Part shown: positions 40,330 through 62,558 of the stretch, in pieces
Layout: every line of letters starts with the position of its first letter
How positions within the stretch are numbered: position 1 is the stretch's first letter
Origin: Tubulanus polymorphus
Lineage: Eukaryota; Nemertea; Palaeonemertea; Tubulaniformes; Tubulanidae
DNA: 64,000 bases
Reading direction: 5' to 3'
Assembly: GCF_964204645.1 (NCBI RefSeq)
Contig: NC_134035.1
Coordinates: 13,683,951-13,747,950 of the forward strand
The notes under the pieces: model-generated
Databases searched by the model: none
Told to the model about the DNA's origin: nothing
The model's input: the letters and a program-made list of their open reading frames with translations, nothing else
Position numbers and translations under genes: made by a program

Positions 40330-40665
40330 GCAAATGTGGAATTGGAGCTGGAGTCAAATTAAATCCACACAACTGTGGAACTGGATTCAGAGTCAAACTA
40401 AACCCACACAACTGTGGAACTGGATTCAGAGTCAAACTAAACCCACACAACTGTGGAACTGGATTCAGAGTCAAACTAAACCCACACAACTGTGGAACTG
40501 GATTCAGAGTCAAACTAAACCCACACAACTGTGGAACTGGATTCAGAGTCAAACTAGACCCACACAACTGTGGAACTGGATTCAGAGTCAAACTAAACCT
40601 AAACAATGTGGAACTGGAGCTAGAGTCAAAATTAAACCCACACAACTGTGGAACTGAATCCACCC
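40330..40665. repeat. ACTGTGGAACTGG minisatellite, main array
   Basis: Nine or so 36-bp units of CACACAACTGTGGAACTGG followed by ATTCAGAGTCAAACTAAACC. The unit length keeps frames open on both strands, giving false proteins. Smaller arrays with the same core lie at 10136-10262, 16335-16452, 25848-25922, 50235-50410 and 55365-55468. Confidence 0.9.
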
Positions 40666-46565: not shown

Positions 46566-46860
46566 TACAGATCCACAGTAGACTACGATCTCTTGTCTCT
46601 GATCTACAGTAGACTACGATCTCTTGTCTCTGATCTACAGTAGACTACATGCTCTTGCCTCAGTGTTGGGACAAATAGATATTCACAGCAAGGCAGCAAA
46701 TGAATTCAGGGACAGTTACAGTAATTCTCTTTGAATAACTATCTACCTTGTAATTAGTTACAGTAATCTTCCTAGAATAATAATCTAACTTGTAATTAAT
46801 TACAGTAATTTTCATTGACTAATAATCTTTGATGTAATAAATTACAGTAATTTCAATTTA
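46566..46860. repeat. Two short tandem repeats at the BBS12-like 3' end
   Basis: ATCTACAGTAGACTACGATC repeats three times (46566-46660), then TTACAGTAAT with TAATAATCTAACTTGTAATT repeats three times (about 46705-46860). The second reaches the last codons and the stop codon of the gene. Confidence 0.7.
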
Positions 46861-49800
46861 TAATCCTCGATACCCGTTATGATTTCTATATCAGTATAAA
46901 TCAACGTAGTCACAGCGTTCGCCGCCGTTCTCCAAACTGCTGCCTTTGTTACCGCGTCGTCATAGGTAACGACGATACCTCGTCCACCGATCAGATCGTC
47001 CGAAGTCGCCGACTGATTTTCGGAATTCTGGCGGATTTTCTCGATGAATTCGTTAAACACTTCAATCATCATCTCGAACACAAGTGTACGATTCGATATC
47101 TCACAATTATCTGAAATATATCAAAAAAGAAAAATGTTCAAAATACACATGTGACCTTCACCTTAAAACAATCCACTTGATGTTTTGAAATCGGCCTATT
47201 TCATAATGGACGAAGCCATCTTGGATTTTGATTAAAACAGCCATTAGCTTGGATATTGAATTTGACGGAATAATCAAAATACAAAATGGCTGCTTACTCA
47301 AAATACAAAATGGCCACTCAAGGAAAATACAAGATGGCTGCTTTGTAGATGTGTTATTCATACCGATAAGTTGTTTCAGTATTTGTATCGAGTGTTGTTC
47401 AGTCGACCCCGCTCCGGGTAAAACCACTCCTCGCTCTATTGCATACTGTAGTCTATACGCGCAGTGTAGAAACTGTTCCTCTTTATGTCTCAAGAGGGCG
47501 CTAGCTGGATGACAACTAACCGCCGTCTGGAAATAGAACAATGACAACAGTTAATGTAAGACAAGGTTTTTACTAATCAGCGAATTCAAAATTCCCCTCG
47601 ACAGATATCCTCAATGAGGGCTGTTTCTTATCAAGAGGTTCCTCGCGCCACTCGTCACCAGCAAGAACAACAAGACACCAAAAACTCAAATTCCCTCAGA
47701 TTATTTTCAAGAAACGAGTCGGAAATCTCTGATTTGCCTGATCTGTAAGAATATTGAAGGTGTGAATCTATTTACCCAGGTTGGATGTCCACAGTCTACG
47801 ATTATGTATGGAAGAAGAGAATCAGAATCCATCCAATCAGCTCGCCAAACTGATAACTTTATTCCACTCGCTACATTATACTACAATAGATAAAGTTACA
47901 ATGTAACATGAACTAGTTACAGTGCCCCAGTTACAATGTATCATGAACTAGTTACAGTGCCCCAGTTACAATGTATCATGAACTAGTTACAGTGCCCCAG
48001 TTACAATGTTTTTGTCCAGATTCTTTTTACGTAAAGGTACACACTGATAAAAGCAATTACTTAATAAGCAATTTAAAAAGCTTGTGCTGCATAGTTTCCC
48101 GACAGCTGAACATGTATATGGTATGGAAAGGAGATATATAGTTAAGAGACCGAAGTATTTTGCCAAACACATTTCCAGAATTTTTCGCACATTTTCATGG
48201 TTTTTCACAGATTTTCATAAATTTTTCACATTTTGCGCATTTTGAAGCAGAAATCAATTTTTCACAGATTTTCAACACATTTTCCACACCAATCCGTGTG
48301 AACCGTGGGCCTGTAATGATAAGACGTTGCACGCTTACCTTGTTAACGTCGCGTATATAAGTGGTAAGTTCAGTTTTAGTAGCCGTTGAAATCGTACGTA
48401 ACACTTTATACGGCACGTGATGAATGACGGCAATCGCAAAGTTTTTAGAATTCAGCGTCAGCAATAAATTCAAATCTACTTCGCCTTGAACTAAAACGGC
48501 TTTTACATTCAACTAGAAAATATACAATACACTCAGGTATTAAAACAAGCTTATTTCATTTAAAAGGCATCGAGAAATTTGAGCAAACTACTTATAAACC
48601 GAGTAGAATTGAGAGTGATATCTGAGTTGGATGGTACAGTAGACTCGGCTCAAGTCTGATCTTATGACTTGACAGTGATATCTGAGTTGGATGGTACAGT
48701 AGACTCCGCTCAAGTCGGATCGTTTGACTTGAAAGTGATATCTGAGTTCATACAGTTGACTCGAGTAGACTCAAGTCGGATCTTTTGACTTGAGAGTGAT
48801 ATCTGAGTTGGATGTTACAGTAGACTCCGCTCAAGTTTGATCTTTTGACTTGAGAGCGATATCTGAGTTGGATGTTACAGTAGACTCCGCTCAAGTTTGA
48901 TCTTTTGACTTGAGAGTGATATCTGAGTTGGATGGTACAGTAGACTCCGCTCAACTTTGATCTTATGACTTGACAGTGATATCTGAGTTGGATGGTACAG
49001 TAGACTCCGCTCAAGTCTGATCTTTTGACTTGAGAGTGATATCTGAGTTGGATGATACAGTAGACTGCGCTCAAGTCTGATCTTTATGACTTGAGAGTGA
49101 TATCTGAGTTGGATGATACAGTAGACTCCGCTCAAGTCTGATCTTTTGACTCGAGAGTGATATCTGAGTTGGATGGTACAGTAGACTCCGCTCAAGTCTG
49201 ATCTTTTGACTCGAGAGCGATATCTGAGTTGGATGGTACAGTAGACTCCGCTCAAGTCTGATCTTTTGACTTGACAGTGGTATCTGAGTTGGATGATACA
49301 GTAGACTCCGCTCAAGTCTGATCTTTTGACTCGAGAGCGATATCTGAGTTGGATGGTACAGTAGACTCCGCTCAAGTCAGATCTTTTGACTTGAGAGTGA
49401 TATCTGAGTTGGATGGTACAGTAGACTCCGCTCAAGTCTGATCTTTTGACTCGAGAGCGATATCTGAGTTGGATGATACAGTAGACTCCACTCAAGTCTG
49501 ATCTTTTGACTCGAGAGCGATATCTGAGTTGGATGGTACAGTAGACTCCGCTCAAGTCTGATCTTTTGACTCGAGAGTGATATCTGAGTTGGATGGTACA
49601 GTAGACTCCGCTCAAGTCTGATCTTTTGACTCGAGAGTGATATCTGAGTTGGATGATACAGTAGACTCCGCTCAAGTCTGATCTTTTGACTCGAAAGCGA
49701 TATCTGAGTTGGATGGTACAGTAGACTCCGCTCAAGTCTGATCTTTTAACTTGAGAGTGATATCTGAGTTGGATGGTACAGTAGACTCCGCTCAAGTCTG

Positions 49801-52800
49801 ATCTTTTGACTTGACAGTGGTATCTGAGTTGGATGGTACAGTAGACTCCACTCAAGTCTGATCTTTTGACTTGAGAGTGATATCTGAGTTGGATGATACA
49901 GTAGACTCTGCTATAAGTAGATCCAGTTCTAGACTCTACGCTGAGTTAAACTCTGGTTATGATAATCAAACTCACATTTTTCAGAATAAGAACACACTGA
50001 TCGATCCATGTTTCTCTAGTTTGTGAAATCGTTTCAACGTCTGTCGTCACCGAGCTGTTCACCGAGTCTTTATGTCCCGTGTGTTTCCATGACGATTTTA
50101 AATCACCGGCGATTAACTGCAACAATAGAATTTACAAACGAACATTCTTCAGCGAAAATATCAATAGTTTACTGGGGTAACATCAAGGGGAAATTTCTTG
50201 TATCACTTGTTTTAACTTGAGAGTCAAATTCTACCCAAGAACTGTGGAACTGGGTCCTAAACTGTGGAACCAGGTCCTGAACTGTGGAACCGGGTCCTGA
50301 ACTGTGGAACCGGGTTCAGAACTGTGGAACTGGGTTCAGAACTGTGGAACTGGATCCTGAACTGTGGAACTGGTCCAAGAACTGTGGAACTGGATCCAGA
50401 ACTGTGAAACTAGTTTCAGTTGTATAATAATTGTAAGACTCACCAGAATGTTATAATCAGTTGAATTGTCTTGTTGAATAATTGAAATGACATCAGTCGA
50501 GGCCGGTAAAATAATACCATCTACAACTGTGGGTTTAACAGATATAGACCCCTGCAGACAGTAACAGTTAACACTAGAAACATCAAACCTGCAATAAAAA
50601 CACATACATCATGCAACAGTCCAGGCTGAGGGGGATGTGAGGAGATGAGAAGGGTGTGAGGGGCTGTGAGGGGAGAGAGGGCTGTGAGGGGCTATGAGGG
50701 GATGAGAGGGGAGAAGATTGATAAACTTACTGTTGTTTGTGATGATGATTTGCTGCTGCTGTTTGTTGTTTGTTGTAAGTCATCATTAACAGATCGGAGA
50801 CATCATCACAATTACGAGTTAATCCACGGATAATCCTCTTTAAATCCACACCCGACGACGAACACGAGATTATCTCGCATTGTCGAGATTTACCCGAGTC
50901 CGGATTATCGTCCGTTGTTGTCGAGGGTGAATCGAATCGGGAAGGAATCAACGATGATTCGATGAAGAAATTCTCACAATTCATCGTCACATTTTCGATC
51001 AGTTTTTCGTTGTATTTCGTGATATTCTCGGTCGCCGTGACGACCGAATCTCGAAACTCGGCGCGTAACCAAGCCTCATTCTCATCGACCAATCGAATCA
51101 AAGCCGATTTACGGTCGGTAACGTCGCGAATCAATTGTTGAAACGATTCCGAGGACACGGCGACGAACGAAGCTCGATTCTCTTCCCAGTGAACGAGCAA
51201 TGATTCGGAATCTACGTTTAGAATCTGTACGAGATTCTGACACTGTCGCTCGGCGACGGGAATCGTACGCGTCGTCGTGGAATCGACGAGGATTCGTTTA
51301 TTCCTCGTAACAATACCGATCGTTTCTCCATGAATCTCGTAGGATTTCATCGTCAATAAACGAAACATCTCGCGAATCTGATTCGTGCAGAGATCGGCGG
51401 AATCATCGAGAGCTTGATTCATCGTCGTTACGATTCTTTCCGTTTTATGAATCGCGGATTCGTGGAATAGTTCTAGTAGTTTTTTAAGCTGGTTACAATG
51501 ACGTTGTAGTAGTGTCGAGTATGAACACATCGATTCACTTATATAATCATACAGAGCAGAACGCTGTTTGAATATCTTACCCAACAATGACTCATCATCC
51601 TACAAATAAATTAATAATTAATATCCGACCCCGAGTCGCGCAGTCGTTTCTTTAATATAAGTTGTCTTATATCTCAAAACTGGTCTTAAATTGTTATTGA
51701 TCTTAAGACTGGGGCTGCAGTAGCTCAAATGTTGGTTAAAAATACCTGGCGGATTTATACCAAAGTTATGACAAACTTCCAACTGTCACTATGTCAGCTA
51801 TCTACTGGTTAACTCTACCCAACTTTTAAACAACTGCAGCCCCTGGATTTTAATTGTTATTGTCCGCGCCCAGTTTCACAAAAATGATAAATGCCTAAAT
51901 CGATTAAAGATAAACTGAATTAATGAAGAAATTATATTGATTTAAGAGTTAAACCTGTTTGTGAAACTGGGACGTGAAGAGTTAAACAGACACTGCAAAT
52001 AAACTGATTTCAACTGAAGAAATTGAAACAAGAGTCAAAGATCTGTAACACCCCCTCGTCCCTCGCTCCCCTCACCCTCCCCCTCCCCCCCCCCACTAGA
52101 GAGGATGATACGTACCTTTATAACGTTAGCCGACAATAATTCAGTTTTCCGATCGACCTCGTCTTTCAAAACTTCAAACGTAGCGTGTAAACTCTCCAAT
52201 AAACTCGATTGATATTGATCGATCATTGATTTCGACGTTGCGAATATCTTCGTTCGTTCGTCGTCGACGGCGACCGATAATACGTCGTCGAGGCAACGAC
52301 GTTTTTTGTCTCGGTGTTCGGAGATGACGTGACGTAACGACAAACATAAACTCTCGATACTCGTATCGATACGCTGATACAACTCAGCGAGAATCTGCCA
52401 TAATTCATCGGTACAATCTCCGATACATTGGTTTATTCTCACTCGAGATACAGGCATTCGCGGTGATTCCCTCCATGGTGATTCCCTACCCAATGATTCC
52501 CTTCCTGTAGATTCCCTCCATACAGATTCCCTGCCCGATGATTCCCTTCCTACAGATTCCCTCCATGCCGATTCCCTTCCTACAGATTCCCTTCCTGTAG
52601 ATTCCCTTCCTACAGATTCCCTCCATGCTGATTCCCTTCCTACAGATTCCCTTCCTGTAGATTCCCTTCCTACAGATTCCCTCCATGCTGATTGCCTCCC
52701 TCGTGATTCTCTCCATACAGATTCCCTCTCAAGCGATTCCCTCCCTGTCGATTCAGTAGCTACTGATACATTCCCCGCAGATTCCCACCATGTTGATTCC

Positions 52801-55800
52801 GTTGTTCCCGGTGATTCCCTCGATTCCGCTGTCACTGATTTACCGTTCAATTTCATGAAGAATTGCTCGTATATAGCGTGTACGTCGAGCGCCCCCTGGT
52901 GTCTGAACGCGTCCATATCACCGGTGAACGATTCACTCGATCGCTCGCTTTTAGACGCCGATACATCCTTGTCGTCGTGGAAACTATCGACCATTGTTTG
53001 AAACGTAGCGTCGAGTTTAGAGTTGAAACTCGCCTGAGTTTTAACGATTCGATTCTCGAGTTTTAAACTCTCGTTTTTAACTCGTTCGATCAAAGAATCG
53101 CAGATTCTCGTAAATATCGTCGAGAACGATTCGTCTCGAATCGACGACGAATCGAGATTCAATATCGCGAGAGATTTCGACCGCGTTGTATCACCGTGGT
53201 AACCGGAGTCGACTCGTGTGTCGACCCTGCGTTTCTCGACCCCTCGTCTCTGGACCCCGCCACCGCCGCCGCTGCTGCTGCTGCTGTCATCGTTATTCAA
53301 ACTCTTCGATGATTTCCCGATCTCAAAACGACGTCTCGTTAACTCAGGAGTTTTAGAACGTAGTATATTCGGTGAAGATTTCGAACTCTTTAAACTCCTG
53401 CTCGTTACAACTCGTTCACGACCGATAAATTTACGATTGGATGACGTGTAAATCATATGTTCAGCGCGCTCCGAGGTGTCCGGTGGATGGTGCATTGAGT
53501 AGGTGTCCGGTGGATGGTGCATTGAGTAGGTGTCGGGTGAATGGTGTGAGCTATAGGTGTCTGGTTGGCGTGAGTTGTAGGTGTCCGGTTGGCGTGAGTC
53601 GTAGGTGTCCGGTTGGCATGAGTTGTAGGCATCCAGTTGGCGTATTGAGTCAGTGTCTGGTTGGCGGTAGGTGTTTGGTTGGCGTGAGTTGTAAGCTCCC
53701 GGTTGGCACGTTGAATAAGTGTCCGGTTGGTACGAGGAATAGGTGTCTGGTTGGCGTGAGTTGTAAGCATCTGGTTGGCGCGTTGAGTAAGGGTCTGATC
53801 CATTCTCTGATCTGTAGTGTCGACTCATCTTCGTAACAATCGGTCGTTTGAATTTTATTTTCTCATTAATCAGATCGTTAATAGATGGCGTTGTTGTAGA
53901 AGTGTTTTCTAGGAACACATCGTCGTCGTGTATTTTCTGTCCGACCGAAAGTTTACGTAATTCACACGTTTTTCCGGTTTCCGTTGATTTCTTTCCGCGA
54001 TCATCGAAACAAGCATCGAATTCATCTTCGTATTCGTGATTCAAACCAGCAGCGATATCTCGTCGATTCAGATTCAGAGGAGAGTTGAGAGGAGGAGGAA
54101 GAGAATTGAGATTCAGAGGAGCAGAATTGAGAGGAGGAGGAGGAAGAGGAAGAGAATTGAGATTCAGAGGAGAATTGAAAGGAGGAGGAAGAGAATTGAG
54201 ATTCAGAGGAGCAGATGGAACCTGAAATGGAACCTCGTCATTTTGAGGCAGTAAATCGACAATCTGAGTCGGCAAATCAGAATATGGAGGCGGGAAGTCC
54301 ACATTTGAAGGAGGGGTGGTAGGAGCCAGGGTGCCTGAAGGTTGGACGCTGGAGAGCAGGTTGCTGGAGGACTGGACGCTGGAGGGCAGGTTGCTGGAGG
54401 GCTGGACGCTGGAGGGCTGGACGCCGGAGAGCTGGACGCCGGAGGGCTCGACGCTGGAGGTTTGGATGCTGTTTGATGATGTAAACTGATTATCATTAAA
54501 CCCGGAGGTTTTTATCCGTTTTTCGATATTTCGTAAGTTGAATAAAACATCACCGGATTTTGTTAAATCTAAACACGATACAAACTCATCGTCATCATCA
54601 TCATCATCACTATCATCATCACTAATCCCTCTTTCCTCTTCATTACTTTGACCTCTAGTTGGAGGAGAGGAGGTAGATAATTCTGTATTATTTATTGCTG
54701 TATTTGAGCTTGGAGCAAATGGAGCAGGAAAATCCTCAATAGGAGGCGGTAGATCTTCAATCCAATGTGGCAGGATTTCTGTTGCAGGCAAGTCTCCTGG
54801 AGCAGACAAGTCCTCATTTGGAGGTGGCAGGATTTCTGTTGGAGGTGGCAGGAATTCTGTCGGCGGCAAATCTTCTGGAGCAGGCAAATCCTCGAATGGA
54901 GGTGGCAGAATATCTGTTGGAGGAGGTAAAATATCTGCTGGAAACGGGATTTCCGGTGGATGAGGCAGGATTTCTGTTGGAGGTGGCAGGAATACTTGTG
55001 TCGGAAGTGGCAGGATTTCTGATGGAGGCAAGTCTTCTGGAGCAGGCAAGTCCTCGATTGGAAGAGTCAAATCATCTGTTTGTAGGTTGCAAGAAGTAAT
55101 GAATATGGATTCATGATTCTCTGTATTGTCGAGCCGTATTTTAATTGAGATATTCTCGAGATTTTTGATACATTCGTGAATTCCTTCATGTAGACCTTCG
55201 CAAACATCAAACACAGGAACCCCCTGAAATATACAATCAATCATCAAACACAGGAACCCCCTAAAACATAAAATCAATTATCAAACACAGGAACCCCCTA
55301 AAATTTACAATCAAAATCTAGTTCTCAGAGTTAAAACGACTCTAACTGAAGTTTTTGAATCAATAACTGTGTAACTGGTATCAGTAACTGTGGAACTGGT
55401 TTCAGTAACTGTGGAACTGGTTTCAGTAACTGTGGAACTGGGTTCAGAACTGTGGAACTGGATCCAGAATTGTGGTGGAGCTGCCTTAGTCTTCTCTCCT
55501 GGGCCTAGCCTTCCAATATTTCCTAGATCCGCCGGATGCGCCCCTATACTGTGGAACTCCGACCACAGTCTTCATTGTGTACATGCAAATTATGCTGATT
55601 ATAACTCAAGAGGTTTTAATCTAGTTAACGAATGATGGATGTTTGATTAAATCACTGACCTGTTGTAGAAGTTTGAGAGATTTATCGAGCCATGCGTTAA
55701 TGAGAAAGTGTAATGTTTTAACACCGCACACGTATGTATCATGATGAGTTTGTATCGTTGACTGGATCAACTCACTTCTTATATCCTAACAATTAAAAAT

Positions 55801-56895
55801 AACGGTCAAAGTGTGATGTCATAGTGGTCACCTGACTATTTACTCAGCCAGGTCATAGGCTGTGACAACACTGGTCATGTGACCTGGTATTAGGGTTGTG
55901 ATTGGCAATGATGTCACTGGTCACCTGACCTAGGGTTAGGGCTGTGATGTCACTGGTCACGTGACTGTCATTGGCTGAGGTGTCATAGTGGCCATCTGCT
56001 GTCATTGGCTGTGAGGTATTAGGGTTGTGATGTCACTGGTCACATGATCAGGTATTAGGGTTGTGATTGGCTGTGATGTCACTGGTCACGTGACCCGGAA
56101 TAGGAATTGTGATTGGCTGTGATATCACTGGTCACATGACCCGGTATAGGGGTTGTGATTGGCTGAGATGTCACTGGTCACATGGCCCGGTATTGGGGTT
56201 GTGATTGGTCATGTGACCCCAGGCGGGGTAGGTTCTTACTTTAATAGGCCGATGTTGCAGTATTTCTGCTGTACAATTTGTAAACGAATATCCACCAGAT
56301 TTTCCACCATTTTCTTCATTTTCTTGTAAACAAAACAAACTATAACGAAATAGAGAGTAATATCAGTTTCATTCCATTTATCATAGAGCATCTAATAGAG
56401 AGGGCACACGCACGCACGTGTGCCCACACGCACAATACGTCGATCATTCTATGACATCAGTCTCTCCGCCAAAGTTTGAATCGATGTCGCCATTGAAGAA
56501 AATAAAGTAAACCAACAGCGATTACGCCAAAAATTTGAGTTTAACTTTTTTTGTGAAACTGGGCCAAGCAGGCACACGCACATGCCAACACGCACACCAC
56601 ACGCACACGCTAGGCTATATGACATCAGTCTCTATATTTTACTCAACGTCTCTGGTTTAATTCATTCACTTTCAAAACAAACGCTATACTAAGCCTACCA
56701 CCAGTAGCGTCGTATTATCAATAAACAAGATTTTTATTAAAGCAAGCTGGGGGCTCAATTTGATGACAAATATATATCAACAGTTGACAATCTGGCTGGT
56801 GGAATGAGAGGGCGCAGAACGGGTTATTGGGGGATAGAAGCTGAACCTGGTCGAGGGAGCAGACAATGTTTCAAATACCTGCAGCTGCCGATCAT
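46842..56895 (-). CDS. BBS12: BBS12-like chaperonin-related protein with a giant insertion (11 exons)
   Basis: Exons, in minus-strand order: 56895-56879, 56339-56240, 55785-55660, 55223-52116, 51599-50731, 50588-50444, 50116-49976, 48512-48339, 47880-47776, 47526-47364, 47110-46842. All junctions are GT-AG and all phases agree; the total is 5,217 nt, 1,738 residues. Family knowledge: BBS12 works with BBS6 and BBS10 in assembling the BBSome for ciliary trafficking. Sequence support: residues 40-110 read like a chaperonin equatorial segment (HHDTYVCGVKTLHFLINAWL, then QGVPVFDVCEGLHEGIHECI). Exon 6 onward gives an apical-type segment (VKAVLVQGEVDLNLLL), then SGIKLSVWRADW, LHCAYRLQYAIE, GAGSTE and a C-terminal TDIEIITG, all close to BBS12 as I know it. 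Odd points: about 1,200 extra residues in the middle, a short N-terminus lacking the usual first equatorial helix, and a degenerate phosphate-binding motif. The five-codon first exon is the least certain part. The nearest clear minus-strand AATAAA is at 45933-45928. Confidence 0.78.
47912..48008. repeat. 36-bp minisatellite, three units
   Basis: CAGTTACAATGTATCATGAA plus CTAGTTACAGTGCCC, in the intron just upstream (minus strand) of exon 9. Confidence 0.85.
48600..49915. repeat. 60-bp minisatellite in a BBS12-like intron (about 22 units)
   Basis: The unit contains GATATCTGAGTTGGATGGTA, AGTAGACTCCGCTCAAGTC and GATCTTTTGACTTGAGA. It fills most of the intron between exons 7 and 8. Because 60 is a multiple of three and the unit lacks stops on the minus strand, a 326-codon frame runs through it; it is not joined to the gene model. 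Confidence 0.9.
50235..50410. repeat. ACTGTGGAACTGG minisatellite in a BBS12-like intron
   Basis: About nine short units (18-20 bp) of AACTGTGGAACTGGGTCCTG lie next to exon 6. Confidence 0.85.
50731..51599 (-). other. BBS12: Exon 5 of the BBS12-like gene: coiled-coil region returning to the chaperonin fold
   Basis: The exon has 869 nt and is open throughout. It begins DDESLLGKIFKQRSALYDYI and carries a long charged, helix-favouring sequence that looks like an extended coiled coil. Near its end DLKRIIRGLTRNCDDVSDLL resembles the BBS12 segment just before the conserved FDIS/FDVS block, which opens the next exon as FDVSSVNCYCLQGSI. So the inserted part appears to end inside this exon. The last bases encode a Gln/His-rich stretch (HHHKQQ) from CAG/CAT-like codons next to the donor at 50730. 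Coiled-coil character is judged by eye. Confidence 0.65.
51711..51843. mobile_element. MITE-like element, GGGGCTGCAG ends
   Basis: GGGGCTGCAG at the left is inverted as CTGCAGCCCC at the right. The interior (TTGGTTAAA, CTGGCGGAT, ACTGGTTAACT) matches the copy at 28740-28874. It lies 25 bp from the CCCAGTTTCACA element in the same intron. Confidence 0.6.
51869..51971. mobile_element. MITE-like element, CCCAGTTTCACAAA ends
   Basis: This 103-bp stretch lies in the intron between exons 4 and 5 of the BBS12-like gene. It has perfect 14-bp inverted ends, CCCAGTTTCACAAA and TTTGTGAAACTGGG. Related copies lie at 2593-2710 and 15287-15408, and a single end is seen near 56545-56562. Confidence 0.65.
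52116..55223 (-). other. BBS12: Giant exon 4 of the BBS12-like gene: insertion with in-frame repeats and coiled coil
   Basis: This single 3,108-nt exon is open throughout (1,036 codons). It starts with the conserved BBS12-like residues GVPVFDVCEGLHEG and then leaves the family. In order it encodes a proline-rich part built on PPPTEILPPP (about residues 130-250 of the whole protein), an acidic DDDSDDDDDDD run (near 286), SSVQPSG repeats (340-383), a PPPY motif, LNLNSLPPP repeats (420-473), TYNSRQPD octapeptide repeats (556-660), a Ser/Gly-rich basic part, a helical segment (770-836), GRESxWRES repeats in 15-nt units (893-1006), and then long charged helices that run on into exon 5. The acceptor (CAG before 55223) and the donor (AG before GTACGT at 52115) are good. 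The octapeptide and RES arrays keep frame because their unit lengths are multiples of three. Confidence 0.75.
55365..55468. repeat. ACTGTGGAACTGG minisatellite in a BBS12-like intron
   Basis: Five units of GTAACTGTGGAACTGGTTTC lie in the intron between exons 3 and 4. Just before them are three copies of ATCAAACACAGGAACCCCCT (about 55206-55300) that duplicate the start of exon 4 with its acceptor. Confidence 0.8.
55805..56222. repeat. Minisatellite with GGTCACGTGACC palindromes
   Basis: About seven units of 50-60 bp carry GTGATTGGCTGTGATGTCAC, TGGTCACGTGACC and TATTAGGGTTGTG. It lies in the intron before exon 3 of the BBS12-like gene. Confidence 0.8.
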
Positions 56896-57222: not shown

Positions 57223-60200
57223 ATGGCTGAAGGAGGGCAGGATCCAAACAGGGATAATCCATCAGATCATCCTCTTAATCCCAGTAAGTTTCTTGCTTCC
57301 AATCCAATCGATCCCATTTGGCATTTCCCAAGGCCAACCCGATCCCGAATGAGAACAAAAAACGATTTTTATTTAATTTCGAAGTTTTATGTGTAAGTAT
57401 TTGAATAGGAGCAGTTAAAAAAAATCTTTTGATTTGTAGTTTCACAATGACTGTGATAGGGATTTGGACAGGGGTTCGGTTTTGGGCACTCATTCATCGA
57501 CATTCATCATGGATAGGACAGGAGGTTGGGCAAGGCTCTGGCCCGGGACACTTAACAGTGACAGGGTCAGGGTTAAGGGTAGCTCTACAGCCAGTGCTGC
57601 GAGGCCGCTGTAGGAGGCTGCTACTCCACTATCCCTGTCGGTATTTAAACATGTTACACTTTCGTTTTTTGTTTCAGATTGGCGCAGGTTACAGAGAAGT
57701 TTAAGCCGTCACGATATCGGGAACCAATCACGTTTCTTGTTACATCAGTTCATACACGAGCGTCTAACCGATGAAGGATTGAGGAATGCTCCCGATCTGG
57801 ACACATTAGTCGAACCAGGAACACCTTCAGGTTGTGATAACTGCGGTAATGCTAGCTTAATATAAACACCCTCCCTCCACCCTTTCCCTCCCTCCCCCTT
57901 TCCCTCCCTCACCCTCTCACCCCCCCCTCCAACTCACTCTGATCGAGTGATAACTCCTGGCCATTGGTACCAGGAGAAAAGGGTAAAAAATTGCTTTGAC
58001 CTCTTTATTGGCCACGCTGACCTGTATAATATTGACTAACTATTCGATCCATTTCTGCTACTATTTGACCTGTTTCTTGGTCATAATTGACCTGTTTATT
58101 GGTCACTCCTTGACCTCTGTTCATTGGCTACTATTTGACTTGTTTCTTGGCCACTGCTGACCAATGTCTTCACCACTATTTGACCTGTTTCTTGGCCACT
58201 GTCGATCGATGGCTTTCTTGACTTTTATTTAACCTGTTATTTTGCCACTGTTGACCAGTGTCTTTGCCACTATTGACCTGTTTCCTGGCCTATCTATGCA
58301 CCACTTTTTGCCTTGTTTTGCCACTGTAATTATTTGCCACTCATCACTGTTTTATTTCTCATGAAATTGTGTTATTTTCAAATCGTTTTGAATTCTTCCA
58401 TATTGTATTACATCACGTCACCGGTGACCGGTCACTTCACCGGTGACTGGTCACCTCATGTTTGATTTCCATTCATTTTCAATGTCATTCAATATTCATC
58501 TTATTCTGTGTCTAATAATCAGCTGATACTAATACAGTAGTCATTGACAACTACTGTTTGACTGTCAAAAGGTTTGCCATCAAATGAAATAAACTGTATT
58601 TATGTTTTAGGTCCACCTATTGATAAAGTACGTGAAGTAGCTCGATGTTTACGTATGATTGGAGATGAATTAGACCAGGATGATAGATTACAATGGTAAA
58701 TCATGATATCTCTATCGATAATCTCATTTCCCTCGCGTGGTTCACTGATATTCGATAATCTCAGGTCCCTCATGTGGTTCACCGATATTCGATAATCTCA
58801 GGTCCCTCGCGTGGTTCACTGATATTTGATAATCTCAGGTCCCTCACGTGGTTCACTGATATTCGATAAACTCAGGTCCCTCACGTGGTTCACTGATATT
58901 CGATAATCTCAGGTCCCTCACGTGGTTCACTGATATTCGATAATCTCAGGTCCCTCAACGTGGTTCACTGATATTCGATAATCTCAGGTCCCTCACGTGG
59001 TTCACTGATATTCGATAATCTCAGGTCCCTCAACGTGGTTCACTGATATTCGATAATCTCAGGTCCCTCACGTGGTTCACTGATATTCGATAATCTCAGG
59101 TCCCTCACGTAGTTCACTGATATTCGATTGATTTGATAGATTCTCGTTTTATTTCTTGTCGATAGTTTGATCTCTGAGATTTCACCCGAATCACCACAAC
59201 AGACATTCATGAATGTTGCCAAGGAGATATTCTCCGATGGAATTTACAACTGGGGACGTGTTGTCACTTTATTTTACTTTGCCTTCAAAATGGTGCGAAA
59301 GGTACGTTTAACCCGTCGTGAAATTACTCTATTCTTCTGTAACATGTATTGGTCTAAGTTTAATTGGAAATTAATTCGATATTTTCTATTTTCAGGCGTT
59401 GGATAAAATACCGTTAATAAAAGCAATAATCGATTGGGTCGTAGATTTCATAATAGCATACGTAGCACCTTGGATTATAGAAAGAGGAGGCTGGGTCAGT
59501 ATTCATTTAATTCATATTTCATTTAATTCAATTGGCCATATTCATCATATTGTTAGATTGATATTTCTTTCAATTCAGTATCGGGGCAGATTCAAGGGGA
59601 TCTCATTAGATTTAAACGTGACCCCTGCCCTTCGAAATATCAGGGCACTAAGCGTCAAAATGAGTAAAATTTGTCAGGAAACAAATTGTGAAAAATATCG
59701 GGTCTTTTAAATCCTACAAGTAAAATATTTTAAAGAAGTTCAGGAGTTTCCATCTGTTCAGTTGCAAAAAACCAAACCTCCAAATTTTGAATAAGTTCCT
59801 AATGAAAATCCCCTCTGTATTAACCCTTTCAGTGCGTCTACACCGCAGTGCGGTGTATAAATCAGCGATAGATTTTGCTTGTACACCGCACTGCGGTGTA
59901 TTGATGTAATTAATAATTAGTTTTTATCTCCCTTGAAAGATGGCAGCACATGTCAAACATAGTGAAATATTAGTAACTAACAGACGCACTATAGTGGTAT
60001 TCCCGTTATTCAACACACTAGGGTGGAATTTTTTTAAATTTTAGATTATCTCCAGCACTATAGCGTATTAATTAGTCAGCACTGAAAGGGTTAAATAATG
60101 AAAATCTATATCACCGATAGAAACTAATGATTGTTATGGTATTTTCACACACAGGAAGCGATACAAGAATATTTCGGAACGCCAGCTATTCAAACGTTAG

Positions 60201-62083: not shown

Positions 62084-62558
62084 AATGTCTGACACTTCGA
62101 GGGCACGGGGCTCAGATGATGATGTGAATTAGGTTCGGGGTCCATTCTCGAAATATCACTTTAAGACCTAACAAAGTCACTCTACGATCCCCAACGGACG
62201 AAAATCAGGAGGAGGAGTCTCTACTGCTATTGTCGTGACAGTAACTGAGGAACGAGTAACTGGGTTAATTTATCGATCACTCAAGAGTGCCCCAGGTTCT
62301 GCCTGTACGTAAAACAGTACTGCGCGCTCATGGAGAGAGTACAGTGCCGCCGCTGCTGCAAATGCCAAGGTTACCCACCGATAGCAGTGCAGTAATACAC
62401 ACAACCTAACCGAACTCGCTCCGCGCAGAGTGTAATTCAGGAGTGATGTGAAATCATCTGATATTTAGTCATCATGAAACACGCCCAGTCATACTGCTCT
62501 TATTTCGCAGTGGTACATATACTGATTAGTGGTAGATACAGATGAGTGGTATCCGGCG

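Follow-up and report, generated by a model that had tools for sequence, protein, structure and literature searches.

We analyzed a 64,000-nucleotide stretch of the Tubulanus polymorphus genome (contig NC_134035.1, positions 13,683,951 to 13,747,950; hereafter the window, whose first letter is position 1) and found on its minus strand a gene for the chaperonin-like protein BBS12. Our preferred reading, to which we assign a probability of roughly 0.6, is that an insertion in this BBS12 has grown about ninefold, reaching ~1,235 residues, and forms part of a single translated protein of ~1,732 residues. The gene structure, the chaperonin homology on both sides of the insert, the position of the insert and its coding character are the firm parts of this reading, and the gene is a real and extreme variant of BBS12 and is probably translated. 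Human BBS12 has 710 residues.

Gene model and BBS12 identity

Ten exons running from 56339 to 46842 have GT-AG borders and compatible phases and read through to a stop codon (Table 1); they are numbered 2 to 11, number 1 being reserved for the missing first exon. The assembled model comprises 1,699 residues plus 33 from exon 2, or ~1,732 codons, close to the 1,738 residues proposed in an earlier, sequence-only reading of this DNA. On an approximate weight table, the acceptors of the ten-exon model score 5.4 to 9.6 and the donors 4.6 to 10.9 (6.0 and 9.3, respectively, for exon 4). The junctions that had been proposed at 55223, 52116, 51599 and 50588 are all GT-AG and phase-compatible, and exons 4 and 5 are open as claimed, with no stop in the long frame of exon 4.

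Matches to the Pfam family Cpn60_TCP1 (curated cut-off, 34.3 bits) stand in profile order on both sides of the insert. The N-terminal piece matches profile positions 23-123 with 33.8 bits, a score that was 27.9 bits before exon 2 was included, and the C-terminal piece matches positions 156-419 with 41.9 bits, above the cut-off. Scanned whole without their neighbors, exons 4 and 5 gave no Cpn60_TCP1 match; the match appears once the flanking exons are joined. For comparison within the family we used human BBS12, BBS10 and MKKS sequences. With the insert left out, the best-matching stretch of the core scored 102 bits against BBS12, 23 against BBS10 and 20 against MKKS, which agrees with the earlier assignment to BBS12. 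The first 75 residues of the model aligned with human BBS12 residues 61-135 at z 19 over shuffles, an alignment that spans exon 3 and the start of exon 4, and the C-terminal part showed 28% identity to human BBS12 over 261 aligned positions. By eye, DTYVCGVKTLHFL occupies the place of NTYRTGISTLLFL in human BBS12, and a GDGTT-type ATPase motif was seen in neither protein. Together, the Pfam matches and the comparison of the three chaperonin-like BBS proteins support the identification of the gene as BBS12.

The gene resembles vertebrate BBS12 in the order and content of its chaperonin blocks and in the place of its insertion. It differs in the size and makeup of the insert (~138 residues in human BBS12 vs. 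~1,235 with long helices and repeats here) and, relative to human BBS12, in a shorter interval from the GAGSTEQ block to the block at the C terminus. Human BBS12 is described in the available portion of a 2017 review (PMC5534436) as having one coding exon, compared to at least ten here. CCT/TRiC subunits share the Cpn60_TCP1 fold family; however, when the C-terminal part was searched against the PDB with expect values (E) of up to 10 allowed, no CCT chain appeared and the single match was a designed protein (E 0.013).

MKKS (BBS6) and BBS10 are likewise chaperonin-like partners in BBSome assembly, and both are apparently present in the genome (267.8 Mb in 77 contigs), but they match the window gene far more weakly and their own genomic copies have no giant insert. 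The MKKS-like gene scored 150 bits to MKKS, and its frame covers Cpn60_TCP1 positions 1-294 across 900 bases with no comparable insert. The BBS10-like gene (L020, G000:C31:5500-10500; the MKKS-like gene is L011) scored 56.6 bits to BBS10 and lacks a giant insert, since profile positions 1-363 fit within 387 of its residues. It consists of one uninterrupted 575-codon frame on a 110,711-base contig. A genome scan with Cpn60_TCP1 gave 53 places, none of them inside the window. Because the window gene is absent from these places, the scan evidently misses diverged BBS12 exons, and a second BBS12 copy in the genome would be compatible with it. When BBS12 itself was compared with the window and the 15 stretches holding other chaperonin matches, the window was the sole match.

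Place and character of the insert

The insert extends for 1,235 in-frame residues across exons 4 and 5, from TLPIEDLP to just before DLKRIIRGL, and lies between Cpn60_TCP1 profile positions 123 and 156. The sequence-only reading had presented a region of about 1,200 residues inserted into BBS12; the size and the open frame stand, but human BBS12 already has ~138 residues (129-266) in the corresponding interval. The available portion of the review cited above (PMC5534436) describes up to five BBS12 insertions, located in the intermediate and the equatorial domain; numbers 1 and 3 stand out from a single face of the former. Given these insertions and the human interval, the insert is an enlargement at a known place, about ninefold over the human interval, and so an extreme case of a known BBS12 insertion; from the order of the blocks, the site, lying where the N-terminal equatorial part gives way to the intermediate domain, would be insertion 1. 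Our searches of the open-licence literature brought up no paper on an insert of comparable size.

As had been described from the letters, proline-rich, acidic and repeat sequence is followed by helical sequence (Table 1), and a short serine-rich tail closes the insert after helical segment 2. Amphipathy at the helical period was strong in segment 2 (328 residues in total; z 7.5 over shuffles) and weaker in segment 1 (z 2.5, p 0.016), while the eight remaining insert segments gave p values of 0.09 or more. A single proline occurs among the 434 residues of the two helical segments. AlphaFold2, given the part encoded by 52454-52116 alone and without an alignment, predicted a continuous 111-residue helix with a mean predicted local distance difference test (pLDDT) score of 94.1 in the best model and 56.5 to 89.4 in the remaining four.

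Coding evidence and alternative explanations

Tandem repeats in exon 4 keep the reading frame. All 17 of the Tandem Repeats Finder (TRF) rows in exon 4 have a period divisible by 3, compared to 34 of the 129 rows in the rest of the window (146 rows in all, some overlapping); assuming seven independent arrays, the chance of this is still ~1e-4. Differences between repeat units leaned to third codon positions in two arrays (24 of 51 and 11 of 16) and hardly did so in two others (3 of 7 and 3 of 8), counts too small for emphasis. Helical segment 2 is free of TRF rows and open through both of its parts. An open frame alone is weak evidence of coding in repeats, because a 60-bp minisatellite in intron 7-8 (48609-49912, ~22 copies) is also open for 356 codons in one frame.

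The insert might be translated and yet be a permissive loop that expanded neutrally, in a genome rich in repeats, with no function of its own. The abundance of tandem repeats in the window and the approximately seven arrays within the insert fit such an origin, as does the statement, in the available portion of PMC2846930, that vertebrate BBS12 evolves ~8-10 times faster than CCT8. However, repeat slippage is not an obvious source of 434 residues with one proline and with amphipathy that is strong in segment 2, and we consider this explanation doubtful.

As to where the insert came from, it may have grown in place or may have been captured as a domain that is now unrecognizable. The specific proposal that the helical part was captured by fusion from another coiled-coil gene, and did not grow from a BBS12 insertion, could account for the lack of detectable similarity between the human and the window insert (p 0.42) and for the helical part being unlike the repeats in character. 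Against it, no copy of a donor gene was found: among three candidates scored, the genome search with the helical part gave one match beyond the window, at E 0.6 and 15.6 bits. The insert also matched no Pfam or NCBIfam family above its curated cut-off and no convincing PDB sequence, and we regard such a capture as unlikely. The matches that the helical part did produce were taken as generic to helices: Pfam Apolipoprotein (E 0.0009, 19.4 bits against a cut-off of 90), Mga, TRIM_CC and two weaker Pfam families, two NCBIfam models far below their cut-offs (E 0.01 and 0.07), and PDB chains of apolipoprotein E and Nup54 (E 0.1 to 0.5).

We also examined whether splicing could yield a BBS12 of ordinary size. 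Without exon 5 the reading frame runs into a stop codon; without exon 4 the frame is preserved, but the conserved BBS12 GVPVFDVCEGLHEG block is gone, so that dropping whole exons would yield no normal BBS12. Among potential internal sites, the first 1.2 kb of exon 4 holds two donors with scores above 3, both out of phase with exon 6, and exon 5 (51400-50740) holds two acceptors above 3 whose phase is unsuited to direct joining. A fairly good donor at 52789 (score 6.4) could join exon 6 in frame and would give a possible shorter isoform, with helical segment 2 and the greater part of the RES array missing. At the start of exon 4, the acceptor with the first codons (AGGGGGTTCCTGTGTTTGAT) occurs in about three tandem copies with a 37-bp period (55201-55314), of which only the last leads into the long frame. 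It seems to us improbable that splicing removes the bulk of the insert from BBS12 proper and that the long frame is part of a different product, from a second gene or an alternative transcript. In favor of this rival, a stop codon (TAA) overlaps the exon 5 donor, so that an unspliced transcript would end there, the donor at 52789 is available, and secure BBS12 homology on the C-terminal side begins only in exon 6. Against it, use of donor 52789 would still retain ~811 codons of exon 4, and the frame of the insert runs on from BBS12 sequence at its N-terminal end.

Several points weigh against the reading of one BBS12 gene with an enlarged, translated insert. The gene model is a prediction from genome sequence, and a test of synonymous codon usage failed to separate exons from introns. 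The insert has no recognizable relative from which constraint on its sequence could be read. AlphaFold2 run on the single sequence of exon 5 gave a mostly helical model of low confidence (mean pLDDT 42.5). At the C-terminal border, the DLKRIIRGL...FDVSS block had been taken as BBS12-like as a whole; the FDVSS part in exon 6 is secure, but the final part of exon 5 by itself is not significantly so. The DLKRIIRGL stretch alone aligns with its human counterpart no better than chance (p 0.29), and homology is secure again only from exon 6 on. The sequence may re-enter the chaperonin in the last ~38 codons of exon 5 (DLKRIIRGL...KQQ), and the predicted chain from exon 5 to exon 6, a weak point of the model, is supported by splice sites and phase.

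At the other end, the N-terminal Cpn60_TCP1 match falls slightly below the Pfam cut-off (33.8 vs. 34.3 bits), and the first ~20 profile positions were not found upstream. These include the Gly-Pro residues of the ATP site, a dipeptide that is conserved in the N-terminal part of BBS12 according to the available portion of PMC2846930. A search for an N-terminal exon with the human N-terminus, covering the upstream window and 10 kb beyond, gave nothing convincing. A candidate start, MATSIQTLAERL, near 56490 brought no gain in Pfam score (33.4 vs. 33.8 bits). The start codon and extreme N-terminus of the ~1,732-codon model are accordingly provisional.

Table 1. Predicted exons of the BBS12 gene and segments of its insert, in window coordinates.
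Feature	Position	Strand	Detail
Exon 2, LFCLQENEENGGKSGGYSFTNCTAEILQHRPIK, N-terminal chaperonin segment	56240..56339	-	donor gtaagaac
Exon 3, equatorial segment DIRSELIQ...LLQQ	55660..55785	-	phase 0, donor gtcagt
Exon 4, BBS12 GVPVFDVCEGLHEG segment, then most of the insert	52116..55223	-	1,036 codons, no stop
Exon 5	50731..51599	-	phase 2 junction to exon 6
Exon 6, FDVSSVNCYC..., secure C-terminal chaperonin homology begins	50444..50588	-	match to Cpn60_TCP1 starts at profile position 156
Exon 7, LIAGDLKSS... apical segment	49976..50116	-	
Exon 8, LNVKAVLVQGEVD... apical segment	48339..48512	-	
Exon 9, YNVASGIKLSVWR...	47776..47880	-	
Exon 10, TAVSCHPASALLRHKEEQFLHCAYRL...	47364..47526	-	44% identity to human BBS12
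Exon 11 (last), VWRTAANAVTTLIYTDIEIITG C-terminal block	46842..47110	-	stop included
Insert, Pro-rich LPPPTE-type repeats	54702..55067	-	33% Pro
Insert, acidic Asp-run segment	54567..54701	-	
Insert, SSVQPS and PLNLNSLPPP repeats	54045..54566	-	
Insert, mixed charged linker	53814..54044	-	
Insert, RQPDTY repeats	53457..53813	-	
Insert, basic Ser/Arg-rich segment	53160..53456	-	
Insert, helical segment 1	52842..53159	-	106 residues
Insert, RES repeat array	52449..52841	-	15/30-bp units
Insert, helical segment 2, exon 4 part	52116..52448	-	111 codons
Insert, helical segment 2, exon 5 part	50949..51599	-	217 codons

Possible role of the enlarged insert

Vertebrate BBS6, BBS10 and BBS12, together with CCT subunits, stabilize BBS7 and start BBSome assembly, and the three BBS proteins localize to centrosomes and basal bodies, as described in the available portions of PMC10356136 and PMC5534436. 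The core of the window gene appears to have the sequence blocks for such a role in BBSome assembly. Its chaperonin core would fold like those of other BBS12 proteins and would join MKKS and CCT in BBSome assembly, while the insert would exit the fold on one face of the intermediate domain and re-enter it on that same face. There, ~640 residues of flexible repeats might tether the long helical stalk, which could dock or multimerize the BBS/CCT complex, for example, at the basal body. The sequence-only reading had suggested that the insert could be a scaffold or a ciliary-targeting addition, a suggestion that is conjectural. We offer as a tentative and rather unlikely proposal that BBS12 is here a two-part protein, a chaperonin-like subunit with a built-in helical stalk that folds by itself and is held by a long, flexible tether. 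If so, the BBS/CCT assembly complex would be anchored or multivalent, and vertebrate BBS12 would have to borrow such a function from separate proteins.

If the insert is translated, the intermediate domain of a relative of group II chaperonins can accommodate over 1,200 extra residues at a single site, and this would constrain how BBS12 can be placed beside CCT subunits. The available portion of the 2017 review (PMC5534436) goes no further than to say that BBS12 insertions might constitute an extra domain that has specific roles. The enlarged insert would be a natural experiment on the role of these insertions.

Neighboring features

Two exons belonging to a Bcl-2 family gene (59140-59707) lie beside the BBS12 gene on the opposite, plus strand; they match Pfam Bcl-2 at E 7e-12 and 6e-5, the second below the cut-off. 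A hydrophobic frame near 62526, noted by eye, may be the C-terminal anchor of this gene. Short tandem arrays that share the words AACTGTGGAACTGG lie at 55360-55475, 50238-50411 and 40351-40656, among others, in introns and elsewhere, as if they belonged to one dispersed repeat family.

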